A DNA stretch of 55,342 nt. Source: a virus. Below, piece after piece: positions 2,356-42,043 of this stretch. The notes beneath the pieces were generated by a model that saw only the letters and a program-made list of their open reading frames with translations, was not told the origin of the DNA and made no database searches. The position numbers and the translations under genes are program-made. The stretch lies in IMG/VR virus record IMGVR_UViG_3300029286_000049, positions 1 to 55,342 of that record. One strand, written 5' to 3'. Positions within the stretch are counted from its first letter, which is position 1; every line of letters begins with the position of its first letter.

Positions 2356-2805
2356 TTAACCTATTCCGTAAATCGCCGTAATCTTCCTAAATCTCCTTCT
2401 AAGAGCTGAAATCATTTTCTTCGTTTCTGGATATGCTTGTATAAGATCCTTCTCTGATAATACTTTGCCTATATTCTTGGGAATTGCAATAGTAATTATA
2501 CCAAGAGTAGAATCATATCTGCCTTTAAAACTGCGCCCAATTACATTATGACCAAAAGCAGTTCCATGAGTTTTCCCCCTATCGACAAACAGGTTAGAGC
2601 CATCCCACCACCAAACATGCATTTTCTTTTCTCTCTCGCTTTCGTCATCATTCCCCATGTGGTATAAGTCAAACATATATCTTGATTGCTCATATTCTTC
2701 GATCCCATAATCATCTGTGTATAAGCCAATAGCCTTAGATAACTCATTAGGCTCTGGATGAGATCTGATTAGCTCTTGCTGTTGTGCTATCTTATACCAA
2801 TTCAT
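2356..2805 (-). CDS. Uncharacterised protein with MNWYK leader
   Basis: The 149-residue protein begins MNWYKIAQQQELI, a member of the shared leader set. I do not recognise the body. It contains a central aromatic segment (MHVWWWDGSNLF), an acidic stretch (GNDDESERE) and a basic C-terminus (LRRRFRK). The start codon overlaps the stop of the upstream ADP-ribosyltransferase-like gene (TAATG), so the two are translationally coupled. The C1A protease gene follows 12 bases later. Its position among leader-bearing genes suggests a packaged or injected protein, which is inference only. Confidence 0.75.
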   Translation of the reverse strand: MNWYKIAQQQELIRSHPEPNELSKAIGLYTDDYGIEEYEQSRYMFDLYHMGNDDESEREKKMHVWWWDGSNLFVDRGKTHGTAFGHNVIGRSFKGRYDSTLGIITIAIPKNIGKVLSEKDLIQAYPETKKMISALRRRFRKITAIYGIG

Positions 2806-20903: not shown

Positions 20904-20919
20904 ACCTTCACTTGAAGGT
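20904..20919 (-). repeat. Short perfect inverted repeat after ART-like gene
   Basis: ACCTTCA-AG-TGAAGGT on the minus strand forms a seven-base-pair hairpin starting at the stop codon of 20919-21968. No T tract follows, so it is not a standard terminator. AGAATATAAC lies just downstream and could be a -10 for the ligase gene. Confidence 0.4.
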
Positions 20920-21968: not shown

Positions 21969-22195
21969 TATTTAGCGGTTTCTATTCTCTCGATAATAGC
22001 GGGTTTCTCTTGATTCCATTTCTGGCTGAATGATCTAAGCAAACGAATAAGCTCTGAAGTATTAGTGACTCCATCACTCTGTAAGCCTAGAAGTAAAGAT
22101 TCTGCATTGACTATCACAGTATCCATTTTCTTGATTCGCTCTCTCTGTCTCATTTTCCATTGAGCATCTAATTGTGCTGTTCTGATGATTTTCAT
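21968..22195 (-). CDS. Small helical protein, MKIIRTAQ start
   Basis: The 75-residue protein begins MKIIRTAQLDAQW, a looser version of the leader (basic-x-A-Q near residue 7). The rest is one or two amphipathic helices (RQRERIKKMDTVIVNAESLL; LIRLLRSFSQKWNQE). It overlaps both neighbours by one base (TAATG on each side), so it is part of the GNAT/ART-like operon. No function known. Confidence 0.65.
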   Translation of the reverse strand: MKIIRTAQLDAQWKMRQRERIKKMDTVIVNAESLLLGLQSDGVTNTSELIRLLRSFSQKWNQEKPAIIERIETAK

Positions 22196-22668
22196 TATTT
22201 ACTCCTAGACGATATCATTATTATATGCTTACCAACTCTCTTCTTTACTCTCCATCCCTTCTTATCCAGAATATGCTTCATCACTGGAGAGACAACGTCT
22301 GCTTCCATCTTCAGATTAGGCATCATATCAAACTTATAGTTATTAAACTCTAATATAGCACTTTCTACGAGCTGTGAGCCTATTCCTTGACCTTGAGAAT
22401 TAGGATCGACTACTATATCAAAAGAAAAGACATCATTGATTATAGACGTATACAGAGCGCCTACGACCTTCCCTGAACTGTCTCTAACAGTCTGATTGAG
22501 TTCTTTGTCTCTCAGTATCCTGATTCCTGAGCTATTTGCTATCTGATCTGCTTGGTTAGCCAAATCAGAATGATCGACATCTTCATATCCATCTTCATAA
22601 AACCCATCTGGGCTATGTGGAGTGAATCTATATTCTTCATTCGCCGCAATTTTCTTGTACCAATTCAT
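22195..22668 (-). CDS. GNAT-family acetyltransferase with MNWYK leader
   Basis: The 157-residue protein begins MNWYKKIAANEEYRF. A GNAT fold follows: GKVVGALYTSIINDVFSFDIV then VDPNSQGQGIGSQLVESAIL, the Q/R-x-x-G-x-G/A acetyl-CoA loop, and a C-terminal strand GWRVKKRVGKHIIMI. It probably transfers an acetyl group from acetyl-CoA to a protein or small molecule. The N-terminal leader lies about 70 residues before the recognisable GNAT motifs. It is the first gene of a three-gene operon, with an AAAGGAAA element upstream. An effector role is inferred from leader and context. Confidence 0.8.
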   Translation of the reverse strand: MNWYKKIAANEEYRFTPHSPDGFYEDGYEDVDHSDLANQADQIANSSGIRILRDKELNQTVRDSSGKVVGALYTSIINDVFSFDIVVDPNSQGQGIGSQLVESAILEFNNYKFDMMPNLKMEADVVSPVMKHILDKKGWRVKKRVGKHIIMISSRSK

Positions 22669-26817: not shown

Positions 26818-26859
26818 ATTTATGATTGCTATTCCAACGTCTTCGTATATTACTTGCCA
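26818..26859 (-). pseudogene. Apparent remnant of capsid gene 3' region
   Basis: In the frame overlapping the homing gene's stop the minus strand reads WQVIYEDVGIAIIN, against WVIYEEIGIAIIN near the C-terminus of the major capsid protein (28030-28090). The DNA differs mostly at third codon positions, the pattern of a diverged homologue. The frame continues to a stop at 26782 without further likeness. It suggests the homing gene arrived with, or replaced, part of a capsid gene. Confidence 0.5.
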
Positions 26860-27842
26860 AAATGCTTCTTTATCTCTTCGATATGCTCTGGCAAAAACCT
26901 TGGCTTCCCCTTCTCTGTCGCCCTATAACACCCAATCTTCCCAACCTTCACAAGATATGCTAAATGAGTATAATCAATCCCTAACTCCTCTGCAACTTCA
27001 CTCATTCTCTTCGCGGCGAATCTCCACTCAGGTATATCAAACTTGTAATCATAACATTTAACTGGAGACTTCCTGCCAATAAAGTCAAAGAAGGCAGGAA
27101 TGCCTTTGGCATCAATCTGGATGCGATTATACCCGTTCTTATGGCATTGGATACCCTTATCCATTAAACGCGCCACAAGGTATTCTACGCCTTCTGGTGC
27201 GAATCCGTCTGTAGATAAACGCAATACAATAGTGTTATTCTGACAGACAACAGATCCATCTCCAAGATACCACATCATAACTGACTTAGGAGTTATGCGA
27301 ACATCTTGAGGAGGGTACTTTACTCTTTTTCCCGCGGAATTTTCTGGATACCATCGCATGTATTGATGATAAAGATCTGGATGAAACTTACTACTTCCAC
27401 ACCATACAAAGCCTTGCTTCATTTTGTTGCTATTATATTTATCTACCGTTGGTCGATACTCACAAAAACAATTCATAAAATAACGGCAAAATTCCTCATG
27501 CTCTAAACCGCATCTAAGCCTTGCCGAATGTATATCTTTATTGGACGCAAGACCAATACAGCCATCACCTATTAGAAACCCGTCAATAGATTCTATCAAG
27601 TTCTCAGATAAATATGATATATTATAATCTAATGGATTAGGATCTTCATTTCTTTTCCCCTCAGATATGCTTCTGCCGAAACCAAGCTTCTTAGCATACT
27701 TGTATACTGTTCCTATTGCTACGTTCTTCCCCTGTTTCTGCAACATTTCTGATATATCAGGAAAGGACATCCTTTTCGCGACGTAATACTCTTTGAAAAA
27801 CTCTTCTGTCAATAACTCTAAATAATGCGGTTGTTCTCTCAT
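26850..27842 (-). CDS. Free-standing LAGLIDADG homing endonuclease next to capsid gene
   Basis: The start at 27842 (MREQPHYLELL) follows GGAG; an ATG six codons earlier is less well placed. The 330-residue protein has an N-terminal helix-turn-helix-like region (MSFPDISEMLQKQGKN, GTVYKYAKKLGFGR), two LAGLIDADG-type motifs (SIDGFLIGDGCIG and MMWYLGDGSVV), and a C-terminal DNA-binding segment (RMSEVAEELGIDYTHLAYLV) like a second helix-turn-helix. It lies directly downstream of the major capsid gene, and its 3' end overlaps a short capsid-like remnant, so the capsid gene may be its target. Confidence 0.88.
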   Translation of the reverse strand: MREQPHYLELLTEEFFKEYYVAKRMSFPDISEMLQKQGKNVAIGTVYKYAKKLGFGRSISEGKRNEDPNPLDYNISYLSENLIESIDGFLIGDGCIGLASNKDIHSARLRCGLEHEEFCRYFMNCFCEYRPTVDKYNSNKMKQGFVWCGSSKFHPDLYHQYMRWYPENSAGKRVKYPPQDVRITPKSVMMWYLGDGSVVCQNNTIVLRLSTDGFAPEGVEYLVARLMDKGIQCHKNGYNRIQIDAKGIPAFFDFIGRKSPVKCYDYKFDIPEWRFAAKRMSEVAEELGIDYTHLAYLVKVGKIGCYRATEKGKPRFLPEHIEEIKKHFGK

Positions 27843-27902
27843 ATATTTCTCCTTATGCAAGATTATACTGCCTATACAATCACATTATCGGTAAATGGGG
27901 AA

Positions 27903-27993: not shown

Positions 27994-28881
27994 TTAAGCA
28001 GGATGGGCAGATGAGGCGGGTACAGTGACTTTTGCTATTGCATAGTCATTGATGATCGCGATTCCGATCTCCTCATATATCACCCAGCCCAAGCGAAGTT
28101 TCTTAGGATCGTCAGCAGGAAGTACGGTGATGTCCTGTCTGATTGGGAAAGCGCCTACCGTGTCAGGTGATGCAACTACCAATACGGTATCAACCGGCAT
28201 ACGAGAGCTGACGTGGATGTCAGCAGTCCAAAGGTGACCAAACAATCCAGTCGTGATAATCTCACGCTGAGATGCTTCGTCATAGAACTCTTTTCCGAAA
28301 AGACGAACCGCTGCGAACTGACGAGCATGCATGACGATCTTGGTGCAAACGAGGTCATGTCTCTCGATGTAGTAGTAAGCATCGTTCATGCTTTCTGGGG
28401 TGAGTACGTCGCCAGTCTCGACAACGATCTGATCGCCTCTTGCGTCAACAGCAGCCAACAAAGCGCGGAAGATATTTGTATCTTCCTCTTTCTGAATGGC
28501 TTCTTTTGCCTTGATTTGGGCACGATCTACAATGTAGAATCTACGTGCCTTAATCTCGGAAAGCTTAACTGTTGGGTGAGCTGCGATTTCGAAGGTCGGG
28601 ACAAGCACCTCTTCGCCCTCTACGAACATATCAGGTACAGCGCCTTTGCGGGCAACAACGTGTGCGATTGCAGCCGGATCTCTCTCGTAACGAGCAAGTG
28701 CGCCCTGTGGGAGTTCGTCTACCATAAGTAGCTTACGACCTACAGCCTGGTATTCCAAAGCGCGTCTAATTGGCTCGACCATAGCCTGTGCCAATGCAAC
28801 ACGCCCTTCTTCTGTCTCCATTGCCTGCGCAATGATTTCCTCTTTCTCTTTGTCTGTCAATGAATTCTTTGCAAATGCCAT
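27994..28881 (-). CDS. Major capsid protein, HK97-like fold
   Basis: The 295-residue protein has an N-terminal helix (EKEEIIAQAMETEEGRVALA), then VEPIRRALEYQAVGRKLL, a Pro-containing E-loop-like stretch (EVLVPTFEIAAHPTVKLSEI), a helix of ALLAAVDARGD and a C-terminal RLGWVIYEEIGIAIINDYAI-type segment typical of HK97-fold capsid proteins, where a final strand reads G-x-x-I-x-N-x-x-A-I-x-x-V. Codon use is markedly more G/C-rich at third positions than in neighbours, as expected for a very highly expressed gene. AGGAG precedes the ATG. It follows protease-scaffold and decoration genes, the standard head-module order. Confidence 0.8.
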   Translation of the reverse strand: MAFAKNSLTDKEKEEIIAQAMETEEGRVALAQAMVEPIRRALEYQAVGRKLLMVDELPQGALARYERDPAAIAHVVARKGAVPDMFVEGEEVLVPTFEIAAHPTVKLSEIKARRFYIVDRAQIKAKEAIQKEEDTNIFRALLAAVDARGDQIVVETGDVLTPESMNDAYYYIERHDLVCTKIVMHARQFAAVRLFGKEFYDEASQREIITTGLFGHLWTADIHVSSRMPVDTVLVVASPDTVGAFPIRQDITVLPADDPKKLRLGWVIYEEIGIAIINDYAIAKVTVPASSAHPA

Positions 28882-28943: not shown

Positions 28944-29483
28944 TTAAGCGATAAGCTTAAAGATCAAGTAAGTTCCCAAAGACATGGAACCATTGATGTC
29001 TGTGCCCGGGACTCCACTTGGATAAGCGGCGGGAGCAGAAACTACGATTCCAACTACATTACCTGCACCAGCTACGTCAGACAAAAGACCGGCGTTGTTG
29101 GTGTAAAGCTTTGTTCCTGGGGTAAGACTGTCTTCTCTTGTGGTATCATATTCGTCAGTGGCGAACTTTCCGCCAGAGGTATAGACAGTCATAAGACCAG
29201 AAGCGCCAGTCTCATTGAAGTTGTCAGATACGCGGTTCTGAGTGCTACGGGCCAAAGCGCCGTATGCGCCAGTGATGATGTTGTCAGCATAAGCTGTTCC
29301 AGCTGTCGTATTGGACTGAGTGTCCCCTGCGATACCATAAACCAACTCGCCAGCAGTATCACACTTTGTTACTGTTCCGTCATCATCGATCTTTACGCAC
29401 ATGCCAGCCATAATGTCGGCAATGAAGTCCTGATTGACAGGAAGCTGATCCGCTACTACATGATAAATGTTAATAAGTGCCAT
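28944..29483 (-). CDS. Capsid decoration-like protein
   Basis: The 179-residue protein is beta-rich, with small residues throughout (DFIADIMAGMCVKIDDDG, VYGIAGDTQSNTTAGTAY, GNVVGIVVSAPAAYPSG). The layout, MAGM-x-V then D-G-x-V-x-x-C then GIAGD, recalls head decoration or stabilisation proteins that are made in large amounts next to the major capsid gene. AAGGAG precedes the ATG. Third-position G/C is high, as in the capsid gene. Exact family unknown. Confidence 0.6.
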   Translation of the reverse strand: MALINIYHVVADQLPVNQDFIADIMAGMCVKIDDDGTVTKCDTAGELVYGIAGDTQSNTTAGTAYADNIITGAYGALARSTQNRVSDNFNETGASGLMTVYTSGGKFATDEYDTTREDSLTPGTKLYTNNAGLLSDVAGAGNVVGIVVSAPAAYPSGVPGTDINGSMSLGTYLIFKLIA

Positions 29484-29512: not shown

Positions 29513-30679
29513 TTATCTACCATACTGTTTTCTAAGTTGAACCAACTCATCCGAATCAGCTTCAGCAACCTGTTTGCTAAGGCTAAACAAGGTTGAAAGC
29601 TTGTTTGACAATTCGCTTTGAGCATTCTTCTGATTATTAGCATGAGTACTTGCCTCGCTGATAATCACGGCTTGTTCCAAACCGTCTGATGCTGCGTTGA
29701 GTCCTTTCTTGCTTGAGAACATTGATTTCTCAATATCCTTTAGCTGTGCGATCCTATATTCGCTAAGTTCAGATACCTTTGAGGACAATTCTGCTGCCTT
29801 GATCATGCCTGTTTCAAGCATGCGTCCGGCGATTCTGAATGCCTCATTTACTCTGTCATTGGACTCCTTCTTACTTGCAGTCACGTTTCCTTTCTGTGAA
29901 TCATTACCAGTCATTTGATTTGTCTTTTCAGACTTGATGGCTGGATTATCTTTCTCTCCGCCGATTCTTGCATCCTTGGATGGAATCTCTGGAGCATTCT
30001 TTTCTGTTGGCTTCTCGCCAATGGACTCTTTTTCTTTTCCGATGAATCCGTCACCAGTTGGAACCTTTTGGTCCTTGGCTGGCTTTGCTTTCGGTACTGC
30101 GCCAATACTTTCTTCCTCATGTCCGATGAAACCAGTTCCAGTCGTCTTGCCGATATCTGGATCATCCTGCGGGAACTTTCTCTGCATCTTTTCTGCAATT
30201 CTCATTACAAGTTCGTCCATTCTGCTCTTTGGAGTAGACATTACGAAAGCAGCCTTCTCTTCCCCGCCAGCGCCCTTTTCTCCGCCTGTTGCGGTGTCAG
30301 TCAATTCAGAATCAAGTTCCTCATTTCCCATCTGTGCTGGACCTGTGAATACATCAGCTATGCTTGCCTTTGGAGGTTTCTCTTGCCCCATAGCAGCATT
30401 GCCTCTCGGAACAGATGGAGACTCTGCTTTGAATGGTTTCTCGTCGCCCAAAGCCTGACTTCCATCACCAATGTTTCCAACGCTGTCTTTTGCAACGTCT
30501 TGAGCTGGTTTCGTCTTTACGCTGCCAGCCTTTTTGCTCAAAGCTGCGATAACACCAGACAGGTCAAGATTGACCTCTCCAGTATTTCCGATATAGCCTT
30601 TTCTCATATACATATTGGACTCCGCTTCGACAGGATTCTCATCTCCTGCCTTCTCCATATTACTTTCCTTATTTGGCAT
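29513..30679 (-). CDS. Probable internal in-frame product 2
   Basis: AAAGGAG five bases before ATG 30679-30677 would start a 388-residue product (MPNKESNMEKAGDENP...). Its opening resembles that of internal product 1 (MANSNDKVEKVAGNP). It covers the charged C-terminal part with repeated phrases such as GDGFIGKEKESIGE and GTGFIGHEEESIGA. The role may be scaffold or core protein. Confidence 0.45.
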   Translation of the reverse strand: MPNKESNMEKAGDENPVEAESNMYMRKGYIGNTGEVNLDLSGVIAALSKKAGSVKTKPAQDVAKDSVGNIGDGSQALGDEKPFKAESPSVPRGNAAMGQEKPPKASIADVFTGPAQMGNEELDSELTDTATGGEKGAGGEEKAAFVMSTPKSRMDELVMRIAEKMQRKFPQDDPDIGKTTGTGFIGHEEESIGAVPKAKPAKDQKVPTGDGFIGKEKESIGEKPTEKNAPEIPSKDARIGGEKDNPAIKSEKTNQMTGNDSQKGNVTASKKESNDRVNEAFRIAGRMLETGMIKAAELSSKVSELSEYRIAQLKDIEKSMFSSKKGLNAASDGLEQAVIISEASTHANNQKNAQSELSNKLSTLFSLSKQVAEADSDELVQLRKQYGR

Positions 30680-33600
30680 AGAATCTCCTTTATTATTCTG
30701 AAGATTTTTTGCTGGATTGGTTTTTCCGCATGGACATTCTTTTTCAGAACCCTCGGATCCTTCTGTATTTTCCTCTTTTTCTGCAAATGGGTTCTCGTTT
30801 CCGCCTTCCTCATTTACATCATTTTCTACTGTATTTTCTACAACATCATCTACTTTATTCTCAACAGCTTCATTACCCATTTCAGAGTTTTCTGGCTTTA
30901 CTTCAAGCTCAATTTCAACACCTTCTGGAGTCTCACCAAAAGGAATCTCAATCTCGCCAGCTTCACCAGCTTCGCCTTCCTCGCCACCCGGATGAACCTG
31001 AGTGTCAAGAGCTTCGTCAAGCTGCTTTGCGACTTCCATAGGAAGTTCAATACTTACTGTCTCGCCAGCAGGACCATTCTCTACAATGCCTTCCTCTACT
31101 GGAGAAGAACCCATCTCACCGCCGTTATCATCGCCACTCATCTCTGGAGCGGGAGCGCCACCATTTCCACCACCATCTGGATCATCAAACGGATCTGTCT
31201 CTTCCTCTGCCTGAGGCTGTACGCCTTGTGTCTCTTCCATTCCAGAATTGCCAATTGCCTGTCCAATGCCTTCTGCAAGCATATCTTCGATGCCAGCATA
31301 CTTCATCTTCAAGCAATTGCAAATCGTAGAAGCTTCTTTCGTCTTGAAGCCCATTCTGATGTAATCTTCATTACATTCAGTTGTGCCTTCTTCTTCGCTC
31401 CAGATTCCGGCAACCTTCATTGCCATCTGGTTAGAATATACATTTGCCTTCTTCAAAGAATTGCATACGCACTCATAAAGAGGCTTGCCTTCGCATGGTC
31501 CGCTCATTGCAAGAGCTTCTTTGCCATATCTACGGGCAACTCTTTCCATGCAAGATTCCATTGGGAACTTGTCATCGCCAAGGCTGAATGTTGCTTTCTT
31601 GTACATAGCAAGAACAGAATCATTTGTGCTTGCAGTCTTAATTGTTCCAAGCTTACCGGCTTTCTTGAGAGCAAGAATTACTTTGCCCTTGTCTTTGAAT
31701 GACATCTTATCAAACTGTTCTTCGCTGACTTTTACAGTCTTCAAAGCGCTTGCAAATGCTTTCTTTGCTCTAGAGCAACTTGGGCATTCAGTGATAACAG
31801 GAGTGATATCCCATTCCCACTGTGCGAAAGCTTTCTTAGGATCTTTCTTGTCGATAGAGAATGCTACTCTGTACTCGCGTCCAGAATCCAAGCAAACATG
31901 CTTACCCTTGCCAAGATCAAGCGTATTAGAAGAACCAGTAATCGGGCTTACCGAACCGATCTTCTTAACGCCACCAGCAGAAGCCTTCTTCAAAGACTCT
32001 GGGTTAAGCTCTACCATAGATGCAAACTTCGTTACCAAATCATTCTTTACGCTGGCGGCGGCTGGCATTGCAGGAGCGCCACCGGCTGGCATACCACCCT
32101 CAGGTGCTGCACCAGCGGCAGGTGCTTCTGCGCCTGCTTCTGGAAGCTCAAAGCCTTCGCCTTCTGCCCCCTCTTCGCCTGCGCCTTCTTCGCCTTCCTT
32201 ATCTTCGCTGTCGTTTTCAAGAAGGTTTGCCCATCTTGCAACTTCAACCAATACTTTAAATCTGAATTCAGAACCACAGTTATTGCACTTACCAGATCCA
32301 TTAACAATGTCAACGTCTGCTGAAGTACATACTGGGCAAACTGAACCCGGTGGCTTCGGATCAAGATTCTGATCGTCACCGCCTTCAAGACCTTCGCCAA
32401 GATCAGACTGCTCAAAGCTCTCTACTGGAGGAGGAGTTTGTGCGCCAGGAGCGCCACCCGGAGCGGCTGCTGGAGGCTGAGGAAGCGTTGTTCCTCCACC
32501 TACACCACCACCCATCTCTCCACCAAGCATCTGAGATTCTTTCTTCATTGCAGTTCTAATCTGCTTACGAGAAGTTGCGAAAGCTCTATCTCTTGGCATT
32601 CTAGCTGCTGGTCCTTGACCCATGCCAGCGCCAATTCCGGCAGGCTCTTCGCCACCGAACTCACCACCGAACTCGCCACCGGACTCGCCACCTAGTTCTC
32701 CTCCAAGATCATTCTCTCCATCAAGACCTACGTCTCCACCTGGGATTACTTCACCTGGAAGTGCCTCGCCGCCTGTCTCCGCGCCCAAATCATCTTCTGC
32801 TCCGAAATCATCGGCAAGAGGATTAAGAGTTTCGTCACCTACTGGATTTCCCTCAATAGCGTCAAGATCAGAATTCGATGGTTCACCGAAACCTCCCTTA
32901 TCACCAGAAAGATCATCCATTTCAAAACCTTCATCTCCGCCAAGATCGCCTTCCATGCCAAGTCCAGCAGATGGATCTAATGCAGGTCTGCGTGTTCCTT
33001 TAAGGGACTTATCCTCATCACCAAACATGCCAGGATCGCTATACTGAGCAAATACTTTCTTCTCATTATCATTGAGTTTGCTTACGTCTTTAGCAGTCAA
33101 AACTACAAGACCCTTGCTCTTATCGGTATCTACCTTCGTGATAACGAACTTCAAACCGCTATCAGCAATCTGCTGACTTGCAAACTTATGAGCAGCCTTC
33201 AAGAAAGCAGCCTTATTATCTGCCTTTGGAGCAATACCAATTTCCTTTACAGTCGAATAAATCTGATATACGCCATCTTCTGGTCTGTCAATTTGATTGA
33301 TAGCATTCAAAAGCTGAGATGTCTTATTTACTGGCTGAGAAACCTTTGGAGTAGTGTTGATCTTTTCAGATGCAGACTTCTCTACGGTTGCCATTGCCTT
33401 GCTGTTCGCGGAAACAACCCCGATTGCTTCTACGATGTCATCAGCGCTAATGTCTTGTACCTTGCTTGCCATTGCCACGATCAAAGCGTCAATAGTGTCA
33501 GGGGTCTTAACTCCGCTAGATGCGATCTTTGAGAAGTAAGACATTCTTTCCTTTTCATTCTGAACAGCTTCTGCCTTGTGAGGCATAGAGTTAATAGCAA

Positions 33601-34219
33601 CAAGGAAAGATGCCTTTGCCTTGTTCTCTACTGAACCGTTTAATGTTGAAGCGGCTTTATAAATCTCGCTTGGGGTCTTGCCATAGAAAGCGATAACATC
33701 AGAAATTGCTTCCATAGCAGCCTTTGCGGTTTTGATAGGATCATAAGTATAAGCCCAACGAGCAAGAGCGCCGTCCTGATCGCTTAGCTGTTTCTGTGTG
33801 ATAGTCTCTGGAACGACGAAACGATGGTTGGTGCGAAAATCCAGAAGCTGTTTTTCAGTAATTCTGTCGCTCTGGTCATTACTCAACTTAGAACCAATCC
33901 ATCTGCTTACGTCTGTCCATTGCTTTTCAGTAATGACATCAGGTGCATCACCCCAGCGAGTTATATAACCGCTAGTAATGCTATCAAGCTGTTTCTCTGT
34001 AATAACTTCATAAGTCCCTAATCTTTCTTGTGGACTTGTGCTGGTCGTAACGTTTGCCTTGACATTCTCATCGACGTTATCAAGCTGTTTTTCAGTAATT
34101 TTATCTGGGGCTTTATCCCATCTTTCCCCTGTAAATTTGGCGCTATCAAGCTGCCTTTCAGTTGTGACATCCGTTGGATTTCCAGCAACTTTCTCGACCT
34201 TATCATTAGAATTTGCCAT
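29513..34219 (-). CDS. Probable internal in-frame product 1 (scaffold)
   Basis: An AAGGAG nine bases before an in-frame ATG at 34219-34217 would start a 1568-residue product (MANSNDKVEKVAGNP...) that omits the protease domain and begins just before the ITEKQL repeats. In lambda, the scaffold Nu3 is made from an internal start in the protease gene in the same way. Use of this site is inferred from the ribosome-binding site only. Confidence 0.5.
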   Translation of the reverse strand: MANSNDKVEKVAGNPTDVTTERQLDSAKFTGERWDKAPDKITEKQLDNVDENVKANVTTSTSPQERLGTYEVITEKQLDSITSGYITRWGDAPDVITEKQWTDVSRWIGSKLSNDQSDRITEKQLLDFRTNHRFVVPETITQKQLSDQDGALARWAYTYDPIKTAKAAMEAISDVIAFYGKTPSEIYKAASTLNGSVENKAKASFLVAINSMPHKAEAVQNEKERMSYFSKIASSGVKTPDTIDALIVAMASKVQDISADDIVEAIGVVSANSKAMATVEKSASEKINTTPKVSQPVNKTSQLLNAINQIDRPEDGVYQIYSTVKEIGIAPKADNKAAFLKAAHKFASQQIADSGLKFVITKVDTDKSKGLVVLTAKDVSKLNDNEKKVFAQYSDPGMFGDEDKSLKGTRRPALDPSAGLGMEGDLGGDEGFEMDDLSGDKGGFGEPSNSDLDAIEGNPVGDETLNPLADDFGAEDDLGAETGGEALPGEVIPGGDVGLDGENDLGGELGGESGGEFGGEFGGEEPAGIGAGMGQGPAARMPRDRAFATSRKQIRTAMKKESQMLGGEMGGGVGGGTTLPQPPAAAPGGAPGAQTPPPVESFEQSDLGEGLEGGDDQNLDPKPPGSVCPVCTSADVDIVNGSGKCNNCGSEFRFKVLVEVARWANLLENDSEDKEGEEGAGEEGAEGEGFELPEAGAEAPAAGAAPEGGMPAGGAPAMPAAASVKNDLVTKFASMVELNPESLKKASAGGVKKIGSVSPITGSSNTLDLGKGKHVCLDSGREYRVAFSIDKKDPKKAFAQWEWDITPVITECPSCSRAKKAFASALKTVKVSEEQFDKMSFKDKGKVILALKKAGKLGTIKTASTNDSVLAMYKKATFSLGDDKFPMESCMERVARRYGKEALAMSGPCEGKPLYECVCNSLKKANVYSNQMAMKVAGIWSEEEGTTECNEDYIRMGFKTKEASTICNCLKMKYAGIEDMLAEGIGQAIGNSGMEETQGVQPQAEEETDPFDDPDGGGNGGAPAPEMSGDDNGGEMGSSPVEEGIVENGPAGETVSIELPMEVAKQLDEALDTQVHPGGEEGEAGEAGEIEIPFGETPEGVEIELEVKPENSEMGNEAVENKVDDVVENTVENDVNEEGGNENPFAEKEENTEGSEGSEKECPCGKTNPAKNLQNNKGDSMPNKESNMEKAGDENPVEAESNMYMRKGYIGNTGEVNLDLSGVIAALSKKAGSVKTKPAQDVAKDSVGNIGDGSQALGDEKPFKAESPSVPRGNAAMGQEKPPKASIADVFTGPAQMGNEELDSELTDTATGGEKGAGGEEKAAFVMSTPKSRMDELVMRIAEKMQRKFPQDDPDIGKTTGTGFIGHEEESIGAVPKAKPAKDQKVPTGDGFIGKEKESIGEKPTEKNAPEIPSKDARIGGEKDNPAIKSEKTNQMTGNDSQKGNVTASKKESNDRVNEAFRIAGRMLETGMIKAAELSSKVSELSEYRIAQLKDIEKSMFSSKKGLNAASDGLEQAVIISEASTHANNQKNAQSELSNKLSTLFSLSKQVAEADSDELVQLRKQYGR

Positions 34220-35599
34220 TATATTAAGCTCCTTGTTCTCTTTATCTTGTGACTGTAGTGTATATACATATTCACTGACTTTTTGTATCCTATCCATAAT
34301 CTTCTGAGATTTGGCTAAAACTTCCTTTATTTTTTCCAGATTGGTATTTGAATTTTTCGGCGTAGTGACATATCCAAGGTTTCCCATACCCTCTGTTTGA
34401 ACATTTGGATTGCCAGTTGGTTGTTGAACTGGCTGCGGAGCAGCTTGTGGCTGAGAAGCCTGCATTTGTTCTCCAGCGGCACCAGTCGTATTTACATTCA
34501 TACCAGATGAACTTGTGGGTAAACCTATGTTCCAATCTATATTTGTAGGAGATGGGATCTGTAAAATACCCATTTCTACAAGCTCGTCTATTGTTCCCTG
34601 TATAGATGACATTGCCTCAACGATGTCAGTGACATACTCCATAGAAATCTTCTCTTTCTGAGACATCATAGATTTAGCAACTATTTCCATCTTATTCATC
34701 GCGTCATTAAGGAACTCAATTTCTTTCTTGCCCGCGACTTTTTCGAGATCGCACATTCCATTACTGCACTCAATTGCTTTTCCAAGTTTAGTAACAACAT
34801 TTCTCATGCCTGCTACTTTCTTAGACAATTCAGATGCATTCAAAATCTTTTCTACATTGCAATCATGGCAAGCAGGATTTACAACAAAACTGTCTTCAAT
34901 AAACTTAATGTCGAAGTTATGTTCATAAACATGAGCCTCTTTCTGGATAAGCTCATTGGTTTCGCCTTTCTTTTTGTGGCAAACTGGGCAAGCGTCATTT
35001 GGTTTACTTGGGCTATCGTGATACTGGCATTTGTAATTGCCAGATACTTTTCTATTCTTCTTCTCTTTGATATGTGTGCAATACTCATCTGCAACATGCG
35101 CCTTATTATGGCAAATAGAGCATAGAGAATAACTTACAGAGCATCCCATAGAAGAACCAGTAATATAGTTTTCTTCTATTCCTCTAGCAAGTTTAGGGTA
35201 AGCAGTCTTATCTACCATCCCTATAATATAAATACCATCTTTGTCATCATCGTACCAAGAATGGACTACTTTGCCTCTTGCCTTCTCTATATCATCATTC
35301 TGGTGATTGCAGAACATAGGAACGCCAACAAATGTTTCATAAGCTTTCTTAAGTTCTTTAGTGGAGAAGTAATCTGCATTGTCATTGACTTCATTTGCCT
35401 TGATAGCAAAAATCTTGACAAATAAATGTTCTGGATGATCCTTGATAGCAGAGGTAAGATCAAAACCGCCTAAATCTGTTTTGTCCTTATTAACCTTTGC
35501 TGTCTTAATGAAGGAAGTATTGATTTCTTCCCAATTGACAGGATCATTCAAAGTGTCCAAAGATACGATTTTATAATTTGCTTTTTTATCTATAGCCAT
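29513..35599 (-). CDS. Prohead protease fused to long scaffold-like region
   Basis: The 2028-residue frame starts with a prohead-protease-like domain: VKIFAIKANEVNDNADYF, GVPMFCNHQ (His99 candidate), GKVVHSWYDDD, and YITGSSMGCSV (Ser149/150 candidate), interrupted by a Cys-rich insert (157-252; CSICHNKAHV, CPVCHKKKG). Residues about 477-606 hold six ITEKQL-type repeats. Then come helical stretches, a long acidic Gly/Glu region (about 890-1100), a zinc-ribbon (CPVCTSADVDIVNGSGKCNNC, cited in parts), further Cys motifs, and an acidic C-terminal third ending in helices. Two strong internal ribosome-binding sites suggest shorter in-frame products, like lambda C/Nu3. Confidence 0.75.
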   Translation of the reverse strand: MAIDKKANYKIVSLDTLNDPVNWEEINTSFIKTAKVNKDKTDLGGFDLTSAIKDHPEHLFVKIFAIKANEVNDNADYFSTKELKKAYETFVGVPMFCNHQNDDIEKARGKVVHSWYDDDKDGIYIIGMVDKTAYPKLARGIEENYITGSSMGCSVSYSLCSICHNKAHVADEYCTHIKEKKNRKVSGNYKCQYHDSPSKPNDACPVCHKKKGETNELIQKEAHVYEHNFDIKFIEDSFVVNPACHDCNVEKILNASELSKKVAGMRNVVTKLGKAIECSNGMCDLEKVAGKKEIEFLNDAMNKMEIVAKSMMSQKEKISMEYVTDIVEAMSSIQGTIDELVEMGILQIPSPTNIDWNIGLPTSSSGMNVNTTGAAGEQMQASQPQAAPQPVQQPTGNPNVQTEGMGNLGYVTTPKNSNTNLEKIKEVLAKSQKIMDRIQKVSEYVYTLQSQDKENKELNIMANSNDKVEKVAGNPTDVTTERQLDSAKFTGERWDKAPDKITEKQLDNVDENVKANVTTSTSPQERLGTYEVITEKQLDSITSGYITRWGDAPDVITEKQWTDVSRWIGSKLSNDQSDRITEKQLLDFRTNHRFVVPETITQKQLSDQDGALARWAYTYDPIKTAKAAMEAISDVIAFYGKTPSEIYKAASTLNGSVENKAKASFLVAINSMPHKAEAVQNEKERMSYFSKIASSGVKTPDTIDALIVAMASKVQDISADDIVEAIGVVSANSKAMATVEKSASEKINTTPKVSQPVNKTSQLLNAINQIDRPEDGVYQIYSTVKEIGIAPKADNKAAFLKAAHKFASQQIADSGLKFVITKVDTDKSKGLVVLTAKDVSKLNDNEKKVFAQYSDPGMFGDEDKSLKGTRRPALDPSAGLGMEGDLGGDEGFEMDDLSGDKGGFGEPSNSDLDAIEGNPVGDETLNPLADDFGAEDDLGAETGGEALPGEVIPGGDVGLDGENDLGGELGGESGGEFGGEFGGEEPAGIGAGMGQGPAARMPRDRAFATSRKQIRTAMKKESQMLGGEMGGGVGGGTTLPQPPAAAPGGAPGAQTPPPVESFEQSDLGEGLEGGDDQNLDPKPPGSVCPVCTSADVDIVNGSGKCNNCGSEFRFKVLVEVARWANLLENDSEDKEGEEGAGEEGAEGEGFELPEAGAEAPAAGAAPEGGMPAGGAPAMPAAASVKNDLVTKFASMVELNPESLKKASAGGVKKIGSVSPITGSSNTLDLGKGKHVCLDSGREYRVAFSIDKKDPKKAFAQWEWDITPVITECPSCSRAKKAFASALKTVKVSEEQFDKMSFKDKGKVILALKKAGKLGTIKTASTNDSVLAMYKKATFSLGDDKFPMESCMERVARRYGKEALAMSGPCEGKPLYECVCNSLKKANVYSNQMAMKVAGIWSEEEGTTECNEDYIRMGFKTKEASTICNCLKMKYAGIEDMLAEGIGQAIGNSGMEETQGVQPQAEEETDPFDDPDGGGNGGAPAPEMSGDDNGGEMGSSPVEEGIVENGPAGETVSIELPMEVAKQLDEALDTQVHPGGEEGEAGEAGEIEIPFGETPEGVEIELEVKPENSEMGNEAVENKVDDVVENTVENDVNEEGGNENPFAEKEENTEGSEGSEKECPCGKTNPAKNLQNNKGDSMPNKESNMEKAGDENPVEAESNMYMRKGYIGNTGEVNLDLSGVIAALSKKAGSVKTKPAQDVAKDSVGNIGDGSQALGDEKPFKAESPSVPRGNAAMGQEKPPKASIADVFTGPAQMGNEELDSELTDTATGGEKGAGGEEKAAFVMSTPKSRMDELVMRIAEKMQRKFPQDDPDIGKTTGTGFIGHEEESIGAVPKAKPAKDQKVPTGDGFIGKEKESIGEKPTEKNAPEIPSKDARIGGEKDNPAIKSEKTNQMTGNDSQKGNVTASKKESNDRVNEAFRIAGRMLETGMIKAAELSSKVSELSEYRIAQLKDIEKSMFSSKKGLNAASDGLEQAVIISEASTHANNQKNAQSELSNKLSTLFSLSKQVAEADSDELVQLRKQYGR
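33782..34171 (-). repeat. ITEKQL repeat array in protease-scaffold protein
   Basis: Residues 477-606 carry six copies of a motif: VTTERQL, KITEKQL, VITEKQL, VITEKQW, RITEKQL and TITQKQL, spaced about 20-32 residues apart, most with an R-W or K-W pair before the next copy. Two further copies (VTTEKQM, QITEKQI) occur in the protein at 49850-50815. This may be a docking repeat between head proteins. Confidence 0.8.
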
Positions 35600-36346: not shown

Positions 36347-36838
36347 TTACGTTTTAACGTGTCTTGGAATGTTTACATTAGCAAGATCGTGCAATGTATA
36401 GTTCCTTTGATTCTGTGGATAAGACAAACCCCACATCTCTACGGCGTGACTCAATGCGCTAGCTATAGTGCTGAAGTATTCTCCGCTAGGCGCATATATC
36501 TTCTTCCTTTTCCATTTTGGAGGCAATCTTTTGATACCAGAGAAGAATCTCTTCTTACCCTGTTTGGTTAATGCCGGTCCTACAATAATGAAATAATCTG
36601 CATCTGTAGTATAATCATGACCTTCCCATCTGTAGTAAGCGCCTTGACCTATATCTCTGTCAAACCTTATCTTCAAGTCATCAGACTTCTCGCGGTATGC
36701 TTCTTTCCAGTCTATACCACGGTCTTTAATCCTTTTGCGACTTGCATCTTTAATTAAAGAATCTATGTCTACATAAGCCTTATGCAAACCAGACATTTGC
36801 CTATCTGTACTTATCATAGATTTGTGCAAATTAAACAT
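36347..36838 (-). CDS. Uncharacterised head-region protein
   Basis: The 163-residue protein begins MFNLHKSMISTDRQ, a loose version of the leader. It is basic in the middle (RKRIKDRGIDWKEAYREK) and has a compact C-terminal domain (DYFIIVGPALTKQGKKRFF, SGEYFSTIASALSHAVEMWG). Its ATG overlaps the portal stop by one base (TAATG), so it is coupled to the portal gene. No family recognised. A portal-associated or head-completion role is a guess from position. Confidence 0.65.
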   Translation of the reverse strand: MFNLHKSMISTDRQMSGLHKAYVDIDSLIKDASRKRIKDRGIDWKEAYREKSDDLKIRFDRDIGQGAYYRWEGHDYTTDADYFIIVGPALTKQGKKRFFSGIKRLPPKWKRKKIYAPSGEYFSTIASALSHAVEMWGLSYPQNQRNYTLHDLANVNIPRHVKT

Positions 36839-39800
36839 TATTTAGTCCCTATTAGGTAAACACATCCAAGGTTATTAGGAAGAATCTCTTTATCAATTAT
36901 CACATTCTCTTGGTTAATATAATCTAAGATTATATGACCAGCAGCAACTTTAATCATACTGAAATCTGCATCAGCGGCTTTGACTCTTTTTCTCTTTTCT
37001 TTTTCAGCAGCACTCAATTGCTGATATATAACTTTCTGCACTTCTGCTGGTGAATCCTCTATGGCGTTCTCATTAAATCTCATTATTCTCCATCCAATGT
37101 TAGCCAGCTTCACATCTCTAGCTTTGTCTCTAGCTTTTGATTCAGCATCTTCATGCCATTTCTGACCATCTGCCTCTATGCCAACGCCGACAGCAGGATA
37201 AGCAAAATCTATATTGAAAGGAAATTGTTGTCCTGGGACTTGAACCTTGTATTGACCATATAAGTTATACGGGACTTTCATGCCGCTCAACATATTATAC
37301 ATCTGAGACTCAAGCTTAGTCAGAGCCAAAGGCATCTTAACAGACTTAGCCTTTTGTTGCTCTTGCATCTGCTCCATAAACGATTTGCCACCTTTGCCTC
37401 TCTTAGTGACCTTGAAACCTTCTGCTGCCGCAGGCATTCCAGGTGCTCCGCCAGGAGCGCCACCCATGCCTCCTCCCATACCTCCCATACCTCCCATACC
37501 TTCCATGCCTGGAGCGCCACCCATTTCTCCGCCAGGTGCGCCGGGAGCGCCGCCAGGTGCGCCAGGCGCGCCGCCACCGCCCATATCCATAGGAGCGCCA
37601 CCGCCTCCTCCGCCCATGCCTCCCATACCGCCACCTTCTTGTCCACCAAGTTGACCTTGAGGACCAGCCATAATCATCTCTTCTCTTATCTTCTGAAGCT
37701 CATCATCATAGCTAAGACCAAACTCTTTAAGAAGCGTATCATTAGAAACAAGACCTTTATCATTCATTTGCATAAACATCTGCATCTTATTAGAATTGTC
37801 TCTAAGGTTAAGATCATTCCATTTGATAGTTGGCTTGAGCCATACTTCTTCTCCAACCATTTCAGATTCTTCATCGTCCCTAAAACCTTGCATCATAGAA
37901 ACAGGCAGGAAGATATGTTGCTCAATCCATTCACTTAAAATGTTTTGCCATCCCTGTAAACGGCGTATCAAAGCTTCGACACCAACCTGAGCACTTCCCC
38001 ACGCTGGACCTTCACCATTTAAAAGGCTCTGGTTCAACATCATCCCGTCAAGAATCTCTTTTCCAATAGCATCCATTTCGGCAGTTATATTATGTATCTT
38101 TCCAGAATTTCCCTGAATAGCAATCTTTCCATTACGCATAGTCACGAAGAATCCAGTAGAAGTCTCGAAACACCATACTTTGCCTTTATAGTATTCTTTA
38201 GAAACATGATCATCTTTTATTCTTGGGAAACGACCCTTTCCGTTATCTGTCATATTACAATTAATTACATATTGCTTACCTTTTCTATACTGACTTAGCA
38301 CAGGTGATAATCCGCATTTAAACAAGACTTCTAGCATATCATCGGCTAAATTTTTACTATTAGTCCCTGCTTGAATTGCGAAAGATTCATCATATACATA
38401 TTTTGATGCGTCTCCCTTGCAATACGCCTCTGCCAAAATCATAAGTTTTTCAGGAGGCAAATTCTTTATCCAATTGGGAATTTTCTTTTCATTAGAATTA
38501 TGACCAAACCATTCACCTATTTGCCTTGCTACATCCTTCATCAAAATGTTCCATGTTGTGGCTCTACCTTCATAGGCATATTTACTAAACTTCATGCCAA
38601 GCGAAGGCATAATTTCATCTATTTCTTCACAGTATTCTGGGTTGGCGGATGGAGACTGACCTATCGAAACTATATAACGTCGTTTCTCAGGCTTAAATTC
38701 ACAATGTCCCTCTGATAAATAATACCCGGCAAATCTTAGAAAATCATCTATTGGGACTTTATATCCACAAACATCAATTTCTTCAACCACCTGCTCTGCT
38801 GAATCATATTCCGCAACGCATCTTACATATCTATCACATTCATTTATAATAGCGAAATCTTTAGCTTGCATAGTATAAGCAGTTTTAAGATCTCTTTTAT
38901 ACCCAAGCATTTTATGACTAGGGGTTACTAACATATCCATTTTATTGCCGAAAAACTTAACCATTTCCCCATCATAATCATATTCATGAAGCTTTAATGG
39001 TTTTTCATATCTCATTTTGCCTGTTTTAGAATCAAATACCATTATCTCATCATCTGCTGTAACTTCCCAATAATTCTTCCAGCCAGATTTACATAAAGCC
39101 TTGGTATCACTAGAGTTACACGCCCCAAACCATTCGTACTCGAAAGCGTGGTGAGTGATCAATGTAAGATTAGGATCATTCGCTACAGCAGATAGCTGTG
39201 CGGATACATCTGCGATGTCATCAGGAGTAGCAGGACGTTCTTTGTCACCGATCTTAACTACTCTTACTGGAAGCACAAGTCTTTCTGCTATAATCCAGTT
39301 TGCAGTCATTAACTTTGTCTTATAAGCGAGAATAGTAAACAATCTACGAAGCATAGACGTACCATACACGCCATAAGGGGCGGCATTATGTCTTAAATGA
39401 CTTATACAGCGATTTGACAGCGGGATAGGTAATCCACTAACAATCATACCAATAATCTTTGGTGGAAGCCTCTTATAGATTTGTTCTGGTTTCTTTCTCT
39501 GAACAAGCATTCTCAGCTCTTCATCTGGGATAAGTGAGAAAACTGGTTCAGGAGCAAGTGAGTTTTTCTGAGCTTCAATCCAGTCAGGATTCAATATAAC
39601 GATTCTCTTTATTTTTCCGCCAGGATGTCTGCAAGACTCGCCTGTTGGAAGAACGCCGCCACCGCCGCATATTGGGCATTCCATCTCAATAAACGGAAAT
39701 ACGTCGCCAATCATATGATACTCATGACTAATGTATTTAAGAATTGCATTCAACTGTAAGTCCTTCACAAGCTTCTCGAAGAACTTCAAAACTTTCTTAT

Positions 39801-40167
39801 CTTTGCACTCTAGCTTAAACCCGTTAATTGGGAAGTGACCATAGAAATCTATGGCGGCAGCTACTTTAGGTTCATTCTCATAATAGAATCTAGCCCATTG
39901 ATAGCATTCTCTTCTTTTAGAAGCAATCTGCCAGTTTTGCGGAGTATGAAGGGGGCTAAAGAACATGGGCTGTGTCATTGTGACATTAGCACCTGATCCA
40001 GCAAATTGAGAATACTTAGTAATAGGCACTTTGACCGTATCGCTAGTAGTATATTTCATATTCCTAGAATAGCCGCTAGAATCGCCTCTAAAAGAACCAG
40101 ACGCTGCGGTTAATATATTTCTGACTTTCTCAGAGCGTTTATCAAGAACGTTAAACTTAATGGGCAT
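36838..40167 (-). CDS. Portal protein with intein and C-terminal nuclease-like domain
   Basis: The 1109-codon frame encodes a portal protein (RRECYQWARFYYENEPKVAA, HMIGDVFPFIE, NRCISHLRHNAAPYGVYGTS, WIIAERLVLPVRVVKIG) cut at residue 349 by an intein (350-687), then the rest of the portal (GEGPAWGSAQVGVEALIRRL, WIEQHIFLPVSMMQGF). After a Gly/Met/Pro-rich linker (about 837-917) comes a domain at about 949-1052 like DUF559/Vsr-type nucleases: FNIDFAYPAVGVGIEADGQK, then WHEDAESKARDKARD and GWRIMRFNENAI. After splicing, 771 residues remain. AAGGAG precedes the ATG. A CPICGGGGVLPTGESC loop (about 164-179) may bind zinc. Confidence 0.87.
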   Translation of the reverse strand: MPIKFNVLDKRSEKVRNILTAASGSFRGDSSGYSRNMKYTTSDTVKVPITKYSQFAGSGANVTMTQPMFFSPLHTPQNWQIASKRRECYQWARFYYENEPKVAAAIDFYGHFPINGFKLECKDKKVLKFFEKLVKDLQLNAILKYISHEYHMIGDVFPFIEMECPICGGGGVLPTGESCRHPGGKIKRIVILNPDWIEAQKNSLAPEPVFSLIPDEELRMLVQRKKPEQIYKRLPPKIIGMIVSGLPIPLSNRCISHLRHNAAPYGVYGTSMLRRLFTILAYKTKLMTANWIIAERLVLPVRVVKIGDKERPATPDDIADVSAQLSAVANDPNLTLITHHAFEYEWFGACNSSDTKALCKSGWKNYWEVTADDEIMVFDSKTGKMRYEKPLKLHEYDYDGEMVKFFGNKMDMLVTPSHKMLGYKRDLKTAYTMQAKDFAIINECDRYVRCVAEYDSAEQVVEEIDVCGYKVPIDDFLRFAGYYLSEGHCEFKPEKRRYIVSIGQSPSANPEYCEEIDEIMPSLGMKFSKYAYEGRATTWNILMKDVARQIGEWFGHNSNEKKIPNWIKNLPPEKLMILAEAYCKGDASKYVYDESFAIQAGTNSKNLADDMLEVLFKCGLSPVLSQYRKGKQYVINCNMTDNGKGRFPRIKDDHVSKEYYKGKVWCFETSTGFFVTMRNGKIAIQGNSGKIHNITAEMDAIGKEILDGMMLNQSLLNGEGPAWGSAQVGVEALIRRLQGWQNILSEWIEQHIFLPVSMMQGFRDDEESEMVGEEVWLKPTIKWNDLNLRDNSNKMQMFMQMNDKGLVSNDTLLKEFGLSYDDELQKIREEMIMAGPQGQLGGQEGGGMGGMGGGGGGAPMDMGGGGAPGAPGGAPGAPGGEMGGAPGMEGMGGMGGMGGGMGGAPGGAPGMPAAAEGFKVTKRGKGGKSFMEQMQEQQKAKSVKMPLALTKLESQMYNMLSGMKVPYNLYGQYKVQVPGQQFPFNIDFAYPAVGVGIEADGQKWHEDAESKARDKARDVKLANIGWRIMRFNENAIEDSPAEVQKVIYQQLSAAEKEKRKRVKAADADFSMIKVAAGHIILDYINQENVIIDKEILPNNLGCVYLIGTK
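37012..37323 (-). other. DUF559/Vsr-like nuclease domain fused to portal
   Basis: Residues about 949-1052 follow the pattern E-x-x-M/L...Y-x-x-Q-x-x-V, F-x-x-D-F-A-Y, G-x-x-I-E-A-D-G-x-x-W-H, a K/R-D repeat helix, then G-W-R-I-M-R-F. Candidate catalytic residues are Asp in NIDF, Glu in IEADG and His in KWH. It is in frame with the portal and separated only by a flexible linker. Confidence 0.7.
38107..39120 (-). mobile_element. LAGLIDADG intein in portal protein
   Basis: The intein of 338 residues starts at Cys350 (CNSSDTKALC), has block B-like MDMLVTPSHKML (T-x-x-H), endonuclease motifs FAGYYLSEGHCE and LAEAYCKGDAS, and ends GKVWCFETSTGFF then GKIAIQGN before Ser+1. Extein residues on either side (EYEWFGA and SGKIHNI) join smoothly. 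Confidence 0.92.
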
Positions 40168-40178
40168 TTTTTATCTCC

Positions 40179-40690
40179 TTAACCTCCACACAAATCTTCC
40201 CAAGTGCTTTCCACTTGTTCCATGTGTTTATTATCGGGATTTTTTGGATGAAAAGGATCTGAGAACTGTTTTATTTCTTCACTCTCATATATCCCATGAA
40301 CTGGTTTATGATGTTTCTTCTTGCTTTTCTTGCTTGTTATTTCCTTTTTATCGATAGGATCAACATCTAAAGTATCATCTTTAGATGCAGCTCTCCTAGC
40401 TGTAGGTAGAGGTTGACCCGGAACGATCATCTTCTTCCAGCTTTCTTTTTGAGAGCCGGGAGAATCTGGCTTATGATCTTCAAGACCTGTCACTTTTGGC
40501 GTGACTGTTTGCTTACATACAGGGCAGAAATTATCTTCGCCTAATGTAGATTGTCTTCCGACTATTAGGCATTTCGGGCAAAGCTTTTCGGGCTTAACTC
40601 CCCATACATCTGCATCCAGTCCCCTTTTCGGAGGTTCTGCACTGAGTGGTTTTAATGGTGGGAGATCCGCTAGCTTGATGTTTTTTTTTT
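40179..40690 (-). other. Zinc-ribbon extension reachable only by frameshift at A10
   Basis: Right after the A10 run (40681-40690) a second frame runs NIKLADLPPLKPLS..., then LCPKCLIVGRQSTLGEDNFC and PVCKQTVTPK, a two-CxxC zinc ribbon, and continues through a Lys-rich part to a stop at 40179. No ATG, GTG or TTG precedes the zinc ribbon in this frame; the first usable start (GTG, MTGLEDHK) is after it. One extra A (A11), or slippage by one base, joins it to the 457-residue gene. Either transcriptional slippage or an indel explains it. Confidence 0.65.
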
Positions 40691-42043
40691 GAGGTTGAAA
40701 GAAGCCTGTCTATCCATATCCATTTGCTCATGGAGTCTGTCATCGTCAGCAGCTCCTTTCAAGTCACTCATAGAAGGCAAAGACTCCTTATATTGATCTA
40801 TACTTTGCTGTACAAACTTAAGGACTTCTTTATATATCTCTCTGGCTAGTGAGTCATCATCCAAATGCTGCAAATGTGGTTGTTCGGCGGCAGACGAAGA
40901 AGCTCTCTCACTGGCAAAACTATCTTCTTCTAAACCCATTACATCAAAAGCGATTTCAGAAGGAGTCATAGAAGTTTGCTCATTCAGGAATTCTTTAGCA
41001 TTGCTTTCTTCCTGACAATGATCGACATAATCTTTTATCTGTTTTTGAAAAAGTTCCTCTTTGCTTTGAGGAGATGGTGTCATATTTGCCTGTGCTGTCT
41101 TTACAGATGCTTTTTTCCAATTGAAAGGTTGTCCAGAAGATTCTGGTTCATAGCCTTTTTCTTCCGCCTGTTTTTCTCTCATTGCCTCAAGTCTGGCTTC
41201 GGTGCTTCTATATTCTGGAAGATATGGTTTTCTTCTTTCGCCGGGTAGAAGCTGATAGTTATTCCCTTCTGGGGTCCATCTATCTACTTCAAATCTCTTA
41301 TTAATATATCCACCAACCCAATTACCATCCTTGTCGCGATATGGACGAGAATACTTGTCCATAATACTTCCGCGCCAGATCGATTCCCAGTCAATGTTCC
41401 AAACATTGTCAACGACCAAACCGAAACCCTTATTTCTCTCTACAACGCTCCAGTCTGAAACTGGCTGTCTAGTAAACGGGTCTATTCTGGTCTGCCCTGG
41501 ACCGTACATGATAATGTTTTGAGATGTTTGTGCTTGGGCTTGCTTACTCAAGTTAAAAGACTTATTGACCGGCAAATTAGAAGATGCCATCTTCTTAATT
41601 TGGCTATCAACATCTTTCACAAAAGCCTCTATCTCTTTAGGATCAATTTCTTTATATTCAGTTGCCATCATACCCTCTTGACTGTCTGGTGATACCATCC
41701 CAACAGGGAGGATACCAGATTTAACTATTTGACCAGCGATCTCCTCTCTTATCCCAGGATCATCTGCTGTGTAATACTGTTCCAAAGCTTCTCTTAATGC
41801 TTCTAAATCGGCATGAGCGACTTTATCTTCTATTTGCTTCTGTACTGCTGTTCTATCCCCACTAGACAAAAAAGCATCAAGGTCAGAACCTTTTTCAAAA
41901 ACCAAATCTTGTTCTTGTGGGCTAGAAGTTTGAGCCGGGTCTTCCAAAGGTTGCTCTGTCTCTGGCATCGCCATAGGATCTTGTGCAGGAGACATCATAG
42001 GGTCTTGCAGCACTTGAGCATTCTTTGTAAAGATTCTTTTCAT
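40670..42043 (-). CDS. Virion protein with internal leader-like motifs, ends at A10
   Basis: The 457-residue protein begins MKRIFTKNAQVLQDP. It has a disordered Pro/Gln N-terminus, an acidic helical part, a central domain (QNIIMYGPGQTRIDPFTRQP, VDNVWNIDWESIWRGS) and helical C-terminal parts. It contains three leader-like motifs: SFNLSKQAQ (162-170), PFNWKKASVKTAQ (306-318) and SFNLKKK at the end. The second nearly equals the N-terminus MFNYKKASVSN of the gene at 50815. The normal frame ends KKKTSS just after the A10; a one-base shift would extend it by about 169 residues including a zinc ribbon. Confidence 0.7.
   Translation of the reverse strand: MKRIFTKNAQVLQDPMMSPAQDPMAMPETEQPLEDPAQTSSPQEQDLVFEKGSDLDAFLSSGDRTAVQKQIEDKVAHADLEALREALEQYYTADDPGIREEIAGQIVKSGILPVGMVSPDSQEGMMATEYKEIDPKEIEAFVKDVDSQIKKMASSNLPVNKSFNLSKQAQAQTSQNIIMYGPGQTRIDPFTRQPVSDWSVVERNKGFGLVVDNVWNIDWESIWRGSIMDKYSRPYRDKDGNWVGGYINKRFEVDRWTPEGNNYQLLPGERRKPYLPEYRSTEARLEAMREKQAEEKGYEPESSGQPFNWKKASVKTAQANMTPSPQSKEELFQKQIKDYVDHCQEESNAKEFLNEQTSMTPSEIAFDVMGLEEDSFASERASSSAAEQPHLQHLDDDSLAREIYKEVLKFVQQSIDQYKESLPSMSDLKGAADDDRLHEQMDMDRQASFNLKKKTSS

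Follow-up and report, generated by a model that had tools for sequence, protein, structure and literature searches.

Does the long open reading frame (ORF) on the minus strand at positions 29513..35599 of IMG/VR virus record IMGVR_UViG_3300029286_000049 encode a single protein, or does it also yield a protease-less scaffold from an internal start, much as phage lambda nests its scaffold Nu3 in protease gene C? The window, i.e., the whole stretch of DNA analyzed here, is this 55-kb record at its full length of 55,342 nucleotides. The ORF starts with ATG and comprises 2028 codons, giving a full-length product of 2028 amino acids. We consider it likely that it is a nested gene of the lambda C/Nu3 or Mu type, in which one gene gives two co-terminal products and the protease-less one, of 1568 amino acids, is the scaffold. 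An internal start at 34219 is strongly supported by comparison of related sequences, among which its signals recur far beyond chance.

The gene's own start is preceded by the Shine-Dalgarno (SD) sequence AAAGGA, with a duplex energy of -5.7 kcal/mol. Two further SD-preceded ATG codons lie in frame, and an earlier note made from the sequence of the window had described the ORF, both sites, and the starts of their products exactly as we find them. Site 1, at codon 461 (34219), reads aacAAGGAGcttaatataATG, with AAGGAG (34229..34234, minus strand) 9 nucleotides ahead of the ATG (34217-34219) and a duplex energy of -7.5 kcal/mol; the predicted product 1 (29513..34219, minus strand) has 1568 amino acids, lacks the protease, and begins MANSNDKVEKVAGNP. 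Site 2, at codon 1641 (30679), reads aataataAAGGAGattctATG, with AAAGGAG (30685..30691, minus strand) 5 nucleotides ahead of the ATG and a duplex energy of -8.8 kcal/mol; the possible product 2 (29513..30679, minus strand) has 388 amino acids and begins MPNKESNMEKAGDENP.

Relatives were collected from IMG/VR by searching with the protease and with the major head protein. Eighty-three loci carried the protease in one ORF longer than 1600 amino acids; these correspond to 65 distinct proteins of 1696 to 2451 amino acids, that of the window included, and to 53 clusters at 70% identity. The contigs carrying relatives reach 494 kb and 548 kb, and a scan of genome contigs yielded no relative. Left out were ORFs truncated by contig ends (L009, L012, L014, L017, and L020), frameshifted ones (L006/L029 and L103), loci with the C-terminal part alone (L039, L040, L042, and L062) or with neither part (L052, L058, and L084), and L021, which has a separate protease and a scaffold part lying beyond the contig. 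L031/L032 (Pupper, Myrna) stood outside the counts and were examined separately. L111 lacks the peptide repeat described below and hence site 1, so that the site-1 counts cover 64 of the 65 proteins (52 cluster representatives). These counts include L055, with a protease part interrupted and spread across two ORFs, and L047, which was omitted from the C-terminal alignment.

In the relatives, site 1 was assigned as the start just ahead of the ITEKQL repeats. At this position, AGGAG or GGAGG stands 4 to 13 nucleotides before the start codon in 59 of the 64 one-ORF relatives, as opposed to 11.5 expected from synonymous recoding. Counted by 70% clusters, the figures are 47 of 52 representatives versus 9.0 expected, with a maximum of 21 among 200,000 simulations, and at the tighter spacing of 4 to 10 nucleotides they are 37 of 52 versus 6.3. 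As a background rate, the SD core precedes 90 of 3263 other internal ATGs of the one-ORF genes. Sixty relatives use ATG as the start codon, 3 use TTG, and 1 uses GTG, and the site is retained while the surrounding protein drops to about 30% identity.

The site-1 SD occupies different codons among the relatives (AAG GAG in the window and L005; TCA GGA GTT in L002, L003, and L025), and the amino acids over it vary, K-E-S in some and x-G-V/A/E in others; conservation of amino acids therefore provides no explanation. A constraint on K-E-S as the cause of the SD was ruled out by the synonymous recoding together with this change in codon phase. The second residue of the site-1 product is alanine, serine, or threonine in 48 of 64 cases, compared to 648 of 3204 for other methionines. 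The RNA around the site folds weakly (mean z, +1.09; P, 3e-9; n = 52), and A is frequent in codons 2 to 6 (0.51 versus 0.34). In 57 of 64 relatives, the SD of site 1 is stronger than that of the full-length gene, and in 2 the two are equal, which predicts more of the short than of the long product.

Several observations weigh against an internally initiated scaffold. In the window ORF alone, internal ATGs with AGGAG or GGAGG at 4 to 13 nucleotides number 2, versus a mean of 2.6 under synonymous recoding (P for two or more, 0.79), and SD cores of 6 bases also number 2, versus 1.5 expected (P = 0.48); the case thus rests on the relatives. Their per-locus table of site 1 was assigned by eye with the SD visible, and a rule blind to the SD, which takes the nearest ATG upstream of the first repeat, gives the lower figure of 52 of 64 relatives, or 43 of 52 representatives, with an SD. 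The spacing is 12 nucleotides, above the ideal, in 12 of the 59; in 5 of the 64, the SD core is no longer than 4 bases. Cluster representatives are still related to one another, which makes the P values for site 1 too small. Distant fused relatives do not clearly share the site: strong internal starts are absent from Pupper gp94, and Myrna gp97 has several without clear homology to site 1. As for the scaffold role, searches of product-1 and product-2 pieces against Pfam and PHROGs returned nothing telling, and Foldseek with the first 411 amino acids of product 1 gave no match at E <= 0.001. Neither databases nor fold comparisons gave a match that names the downstream part a scaffold, and some 1570 amino acids would be very long for one.

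In the part of the protein ahead of site 1, profile matches cover residues 42-285 (phrog_2774) and residues 78-185 (phrog_18299, a head maturation protease; 1.4e-11). The core of an AlphaFold model built from 36 sequences is predicted confidently (predicted local distance difference test, >90). The best PDB match of the model in Foldseek is T4 gp21 (5jbl; probability 1.00, E 6e-3, partial coverage), and a second-look fold comparison scored varicella-zoster protease at Z 10.2 and T4 gp21 at Z 9.6, with unrelated rows at 6-7. By these profile and model matches, the N-terminal domain (residues 45-255; 34835..35467, minus strand) is a prohead protease of the T4 gp21/herpesvirus assemblin fold. H99 and S150 are unchanged in all 36 aligned protease sequences and, as the conserved Ser/His, probably have a catalytic role; we propose that the protease cuts head proteins and itself. 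Intein-like inserts are found at or beside the catalytic-serine region, at several positions, in L026, L030, L035, L045, L049, L050, L056, L057, L063, L065, L068, L073, L075, L096, L107, and others; many of the longer one-ORF relatives have such inserts in the protease.

The gene order of the locus is portal, protease/scaffold, decoration-like, and major head protein. The place of the 2028-codon gene between the portal and major head genes is that of nested protease/scaffold genes of the lambda C/Nu3 and Mu types, and the conserved sequence signals of an in-frame internal start with a ribosome-binding site after the protease part are likewise as in those genes. Together with the fold, this bears out the protease-scaffold reading that the earlier note had given of the N terminus and the locus. 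We propose that ribosomes starting at 35599, behind the weaker SD, would make little of the 2028-residue protein with its N-terminal prohead protease, and that independent starts at 34219, with a stronger SD and weakly folded, A-rich surroundings, would make more of the 1568-residue protease-less protein, the putative head scaffold or core. Because both products share the C-terminal part, a few full-length molecules would co-assemble with many short ones. Through this co-assembly, the protease would enter the prohead at low dose and would then cut the scaffold and itself.

Five relatives carry the two parts as separate genes (L022, L023, L024, L027 with its copy L028, and L048, in which the contig end cuts the protease). 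Their scaffold genes have start codons of their own, some 85-115 codons upstream of site 1, and the site-1 region of all five contains no start codon with an AGGAG/GGAGG core. The comparison with separate-gene relatives that the earlier note had proposed supplies a natural control, in which the inner start is gone. Two apparent splits were not counted: the separate C-terminal ORF of L047, considered as a natural split at site 2, reflects just one in-frame TGA, and L103 has a frameshift between homologous blocks. In a tree built from the protease plus the major head protein, the split relatives cluster together (support, 94), flanked by an outer and an inner one-ORF group, and two state changes suffice when phage G is counted as split and L103 is omitted. 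The root hangs on long branches (phage G and L111), which makes the direction of change uncertain; the simplest reading of the tree would be an old one-ORF state and a single later split, not a recent fusion. An endonuclease-like ORF, so labeled by eye, lies right after the separate protease gene in L024 (9983-11119, plus strand) and in L021 (9923-11335, plus strand); in L024, it sits between the protease and scaffold genes.

These comparisons bear on what else site 1 might be. Separate short protease genes in phage G and Tunturi_5, along with the five split relatives from IMG/VR, are what one would look for if the ORF had arisen by recent fusion and kept leftover start sites that are no longer used, which is close to the three fused genes of the earlier note. 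However, one-ORF genes lie on either side of the split clade, an unused site is not expected to survive divergence to about 30% identity, and the separate scaffold genes begin upstream of site 1 rather than at it; we regard fusion as very improbable. Hardly more credible is the idea that the conserved AGGAG causes ribosomal pausing at a domain boundary and initiates nothing. Intragenic SD-like sequences are thought to slow ribosomes, and site 1 does sit where the protease part gives way to the one that follows it, but the start codon (TTG or GTG in four relatives, otherwise ATG) is held at a start-like spacing, followed by alanine, serine, or threonine and by A-rich codons in weakly folded RNA, and the split relatives drop the SD.

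Doubts of a different kind concern the role of the short product and the number of products. The product could be real and yet be mainly an internal head or ejected protein rather than a transient scaffold, a possibility to which we give a minor share of our belief. The size of product 1, its zinc-ribbon-like CxxC motifs, and its acidic linkers would suit such a role, and giant phages hold much cleaved internal head protein (PMC10052503). A scaffold is favored by the position of the gene between the portal and major head genes, where there is no obvious separate scaffold gene, and by the C terminus that the product shares with the protease, an arrangement known from lambda and Mu. About equally doubtful is a third nested product, the C-terminal protein of 388 amino acids begun at 30679, for which speak the strongest duplex of the three starts and a local RNA among the weakest-folded 6% of the ORF. 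In a distant outer clade (L091-L104), moreover, strong starts recur near the homologous C-terminal place: GAGGAGGT in L092, L093, L095, L098, and L099, and AGGAGGT in L102. Site 2 is, however, not above chance in the window ORF. When it was counted in the relatives as an SD-preceded ATG within 50 codons ahead of an NLDL-type motif, with anchors given by the alignment, it was found in 14 of 51 cluster representatives of the whole family versus 7.8 expected (P = 0.01, marginal) and in 10 of 41 of the window's larger clade versus 7.1 expected (P = 0.14), i.e., without enrichment there. Another count, 17 of 51 versus 8.0, used anchors shifted by hand by 8 for outer-clade rows L092, L093, L095, L098, and L099. 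The region is rich in glutamate, and SD-like text is therefore common in it. Start 2 as the conserved methionine 12 residues ahead of the NLDL motif was rejected, since most near relatives keep the methionine and not the SD. Thus, of the three nested products suggested earlier, the lambda-like start at 34219 is supported, whereas that at 30679 is not conserved in the window's clade.

The outer clade has a further peculiarity. In seven of its nine rows (L091, L092, L093, L095, L098, L099, and L104, but not L097 and L102), one more in-frame start with a strong SD lies about 113 codons ahead of site 1, within the stretch in which the separate scaffold genes have their starts. More than two products per gene are plausible in this clade, judging from the starts.

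Directly after start 1, product 1 contains about six ITEKQL-type peptide repeats (33782..34165, minus strand), and a helical domain and a small alpha/beta domain are predicted with moderate to good confidence at residues ~615-855 (33033..33756, minus strand); the A3 profile has no PDB relatives by sequence. Just inside product 1, residues 470-472 are K-V-A (34184..34192, minus strand). With strict spacing, K-x-A occurs 1817 times in the 53 cluster representatives versus 796 expected (2.3-fold), whereas KA, KxxA, and AxK are not above chance there. The window ORF has 38 K-x-A versus 17.2 expected, and KA is also high in it (30 versus 16.8). K-x-A falls within the first 30 residues of 62 of 64 site-1 products (37% in random windows) and within the first 40 residues of 62 of 65 full-length proteins, and the M, K, and A columns of alignment A4 show no variation (37 of 37). 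The likeness between the starts of products 1 and 2 comes partly from the family-wide K-x-A near the N terminus of product 1; product 2 has K-A-G. By analogy with the SPN3US protease, which cleaves after AxE in propeptides (PMC10052503), we infer that K-x-A may be the recognition or cleavage motif of the protease in this ORF.

K-x-A also looks high in some other genes of the window, e.g., 40670-42043 (8 versus 2.3 expected). An N-terminal tag of the MNWYK/MNWYN type, often followed by K-x-A, is carried by unrelated small proteins, 41 ORFs in the loci and the window together; those in the window are 192-842 (plus strand) and 2356-2805, 2805-3689, 20919-21968, and 22195-22668 (minus strand). No description of the tag was found in the literature searched. 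A bolder scheme, which we put forward tentatively and think rather unlikely to hold as a whole, would make the ORF a polyprotein of giant phages: nested starts would set the dose, K-x-A would be the protease site dividing it into many pieces, the MNWYK-x-A tag would mark cargo for head entry and trimming, and the gene of the distant clade would give four co-terminal products. For such a cargo tag, a likeness to the capsid-targeting peptides of T4 is proposed.

The neighboring genes that follow lie on the minus strand. The portal gene (36838..40167; phrog_16240, 6e-39) has an intein-like insert, read from the translation, and a DUF559/MTES_1575 nuclease-like domain at its C terminus. Next downstream of the ORF, a gene of 179 amino acids (28944..29483) occupies the position of a decoration protein by synteny with phage G gp26, "capsid decoration." The major head protein (27994..28881; phrog_2522, 6.9e-66) is 51.8% identical to Bacillus phage G gp27, and its gene is adjoined by a LAGLIDADG endonuclease gene (26850-27860; PF03161, 3.4e-14).

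If the nested-gene reading is true, gene lists of these giant phages miss an abundant head protein that has no ORF of its own, and the protease-scaffold dosing of lambda, Mu, and herpesviruses extends to phages with phage G-related heads. It also offers a specific start site open to testing and a putative cleavage motif for head assembly; no experimental description of this gene or head-assembly system was found in the literature searched.

Among known systems, Mu and PaMx73 have a protease gene whose in-frame internal start gives a co-terminal scaffold (PMC4378225), and a complex of lambda C, Nu3, and portal is described in PMC3224144. The gene described here resembles lambda C/Nu3 and Mu in being a protease gene with a predicted in-frame internal start and a co-terminal product. 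It differs from them in its length of 1.7 to 2.5 thousand codons, in the roughly 1570 amino acids of the predicted short product, in its ITEKQL repeats and K-x-A motifs, and in a scaffold part with no match in Pfam or PHROGs. Homologous proteases in one ORF are found in Mycobacterium phage Myrna (gp97, 1211 amino acids) and Gordonia phage Pupper (gp94, 1082 amino acids), which are shorter and have no clearly homologous internal start. Bacillus phage G gp19 (by tblastn) and Tunturiibacter phage Tunturi_5 gp331 (by annotation) are homologous proteases as well, the latter phage having a major head protein 31.8% identical to that of the window; in both, the protease is a separate gene, of 300 and 287 amino acids, respectively, and other short ORFs replace the long downstream part. 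Herpesvirus UL26/UL26.5 follows the same logic, with a protease of the assemblin fold fused to a scaffold and a co-terminal scaffold made alongside it, but herpesviruses use an internal transcript start, whereas a translation start is predicted here.

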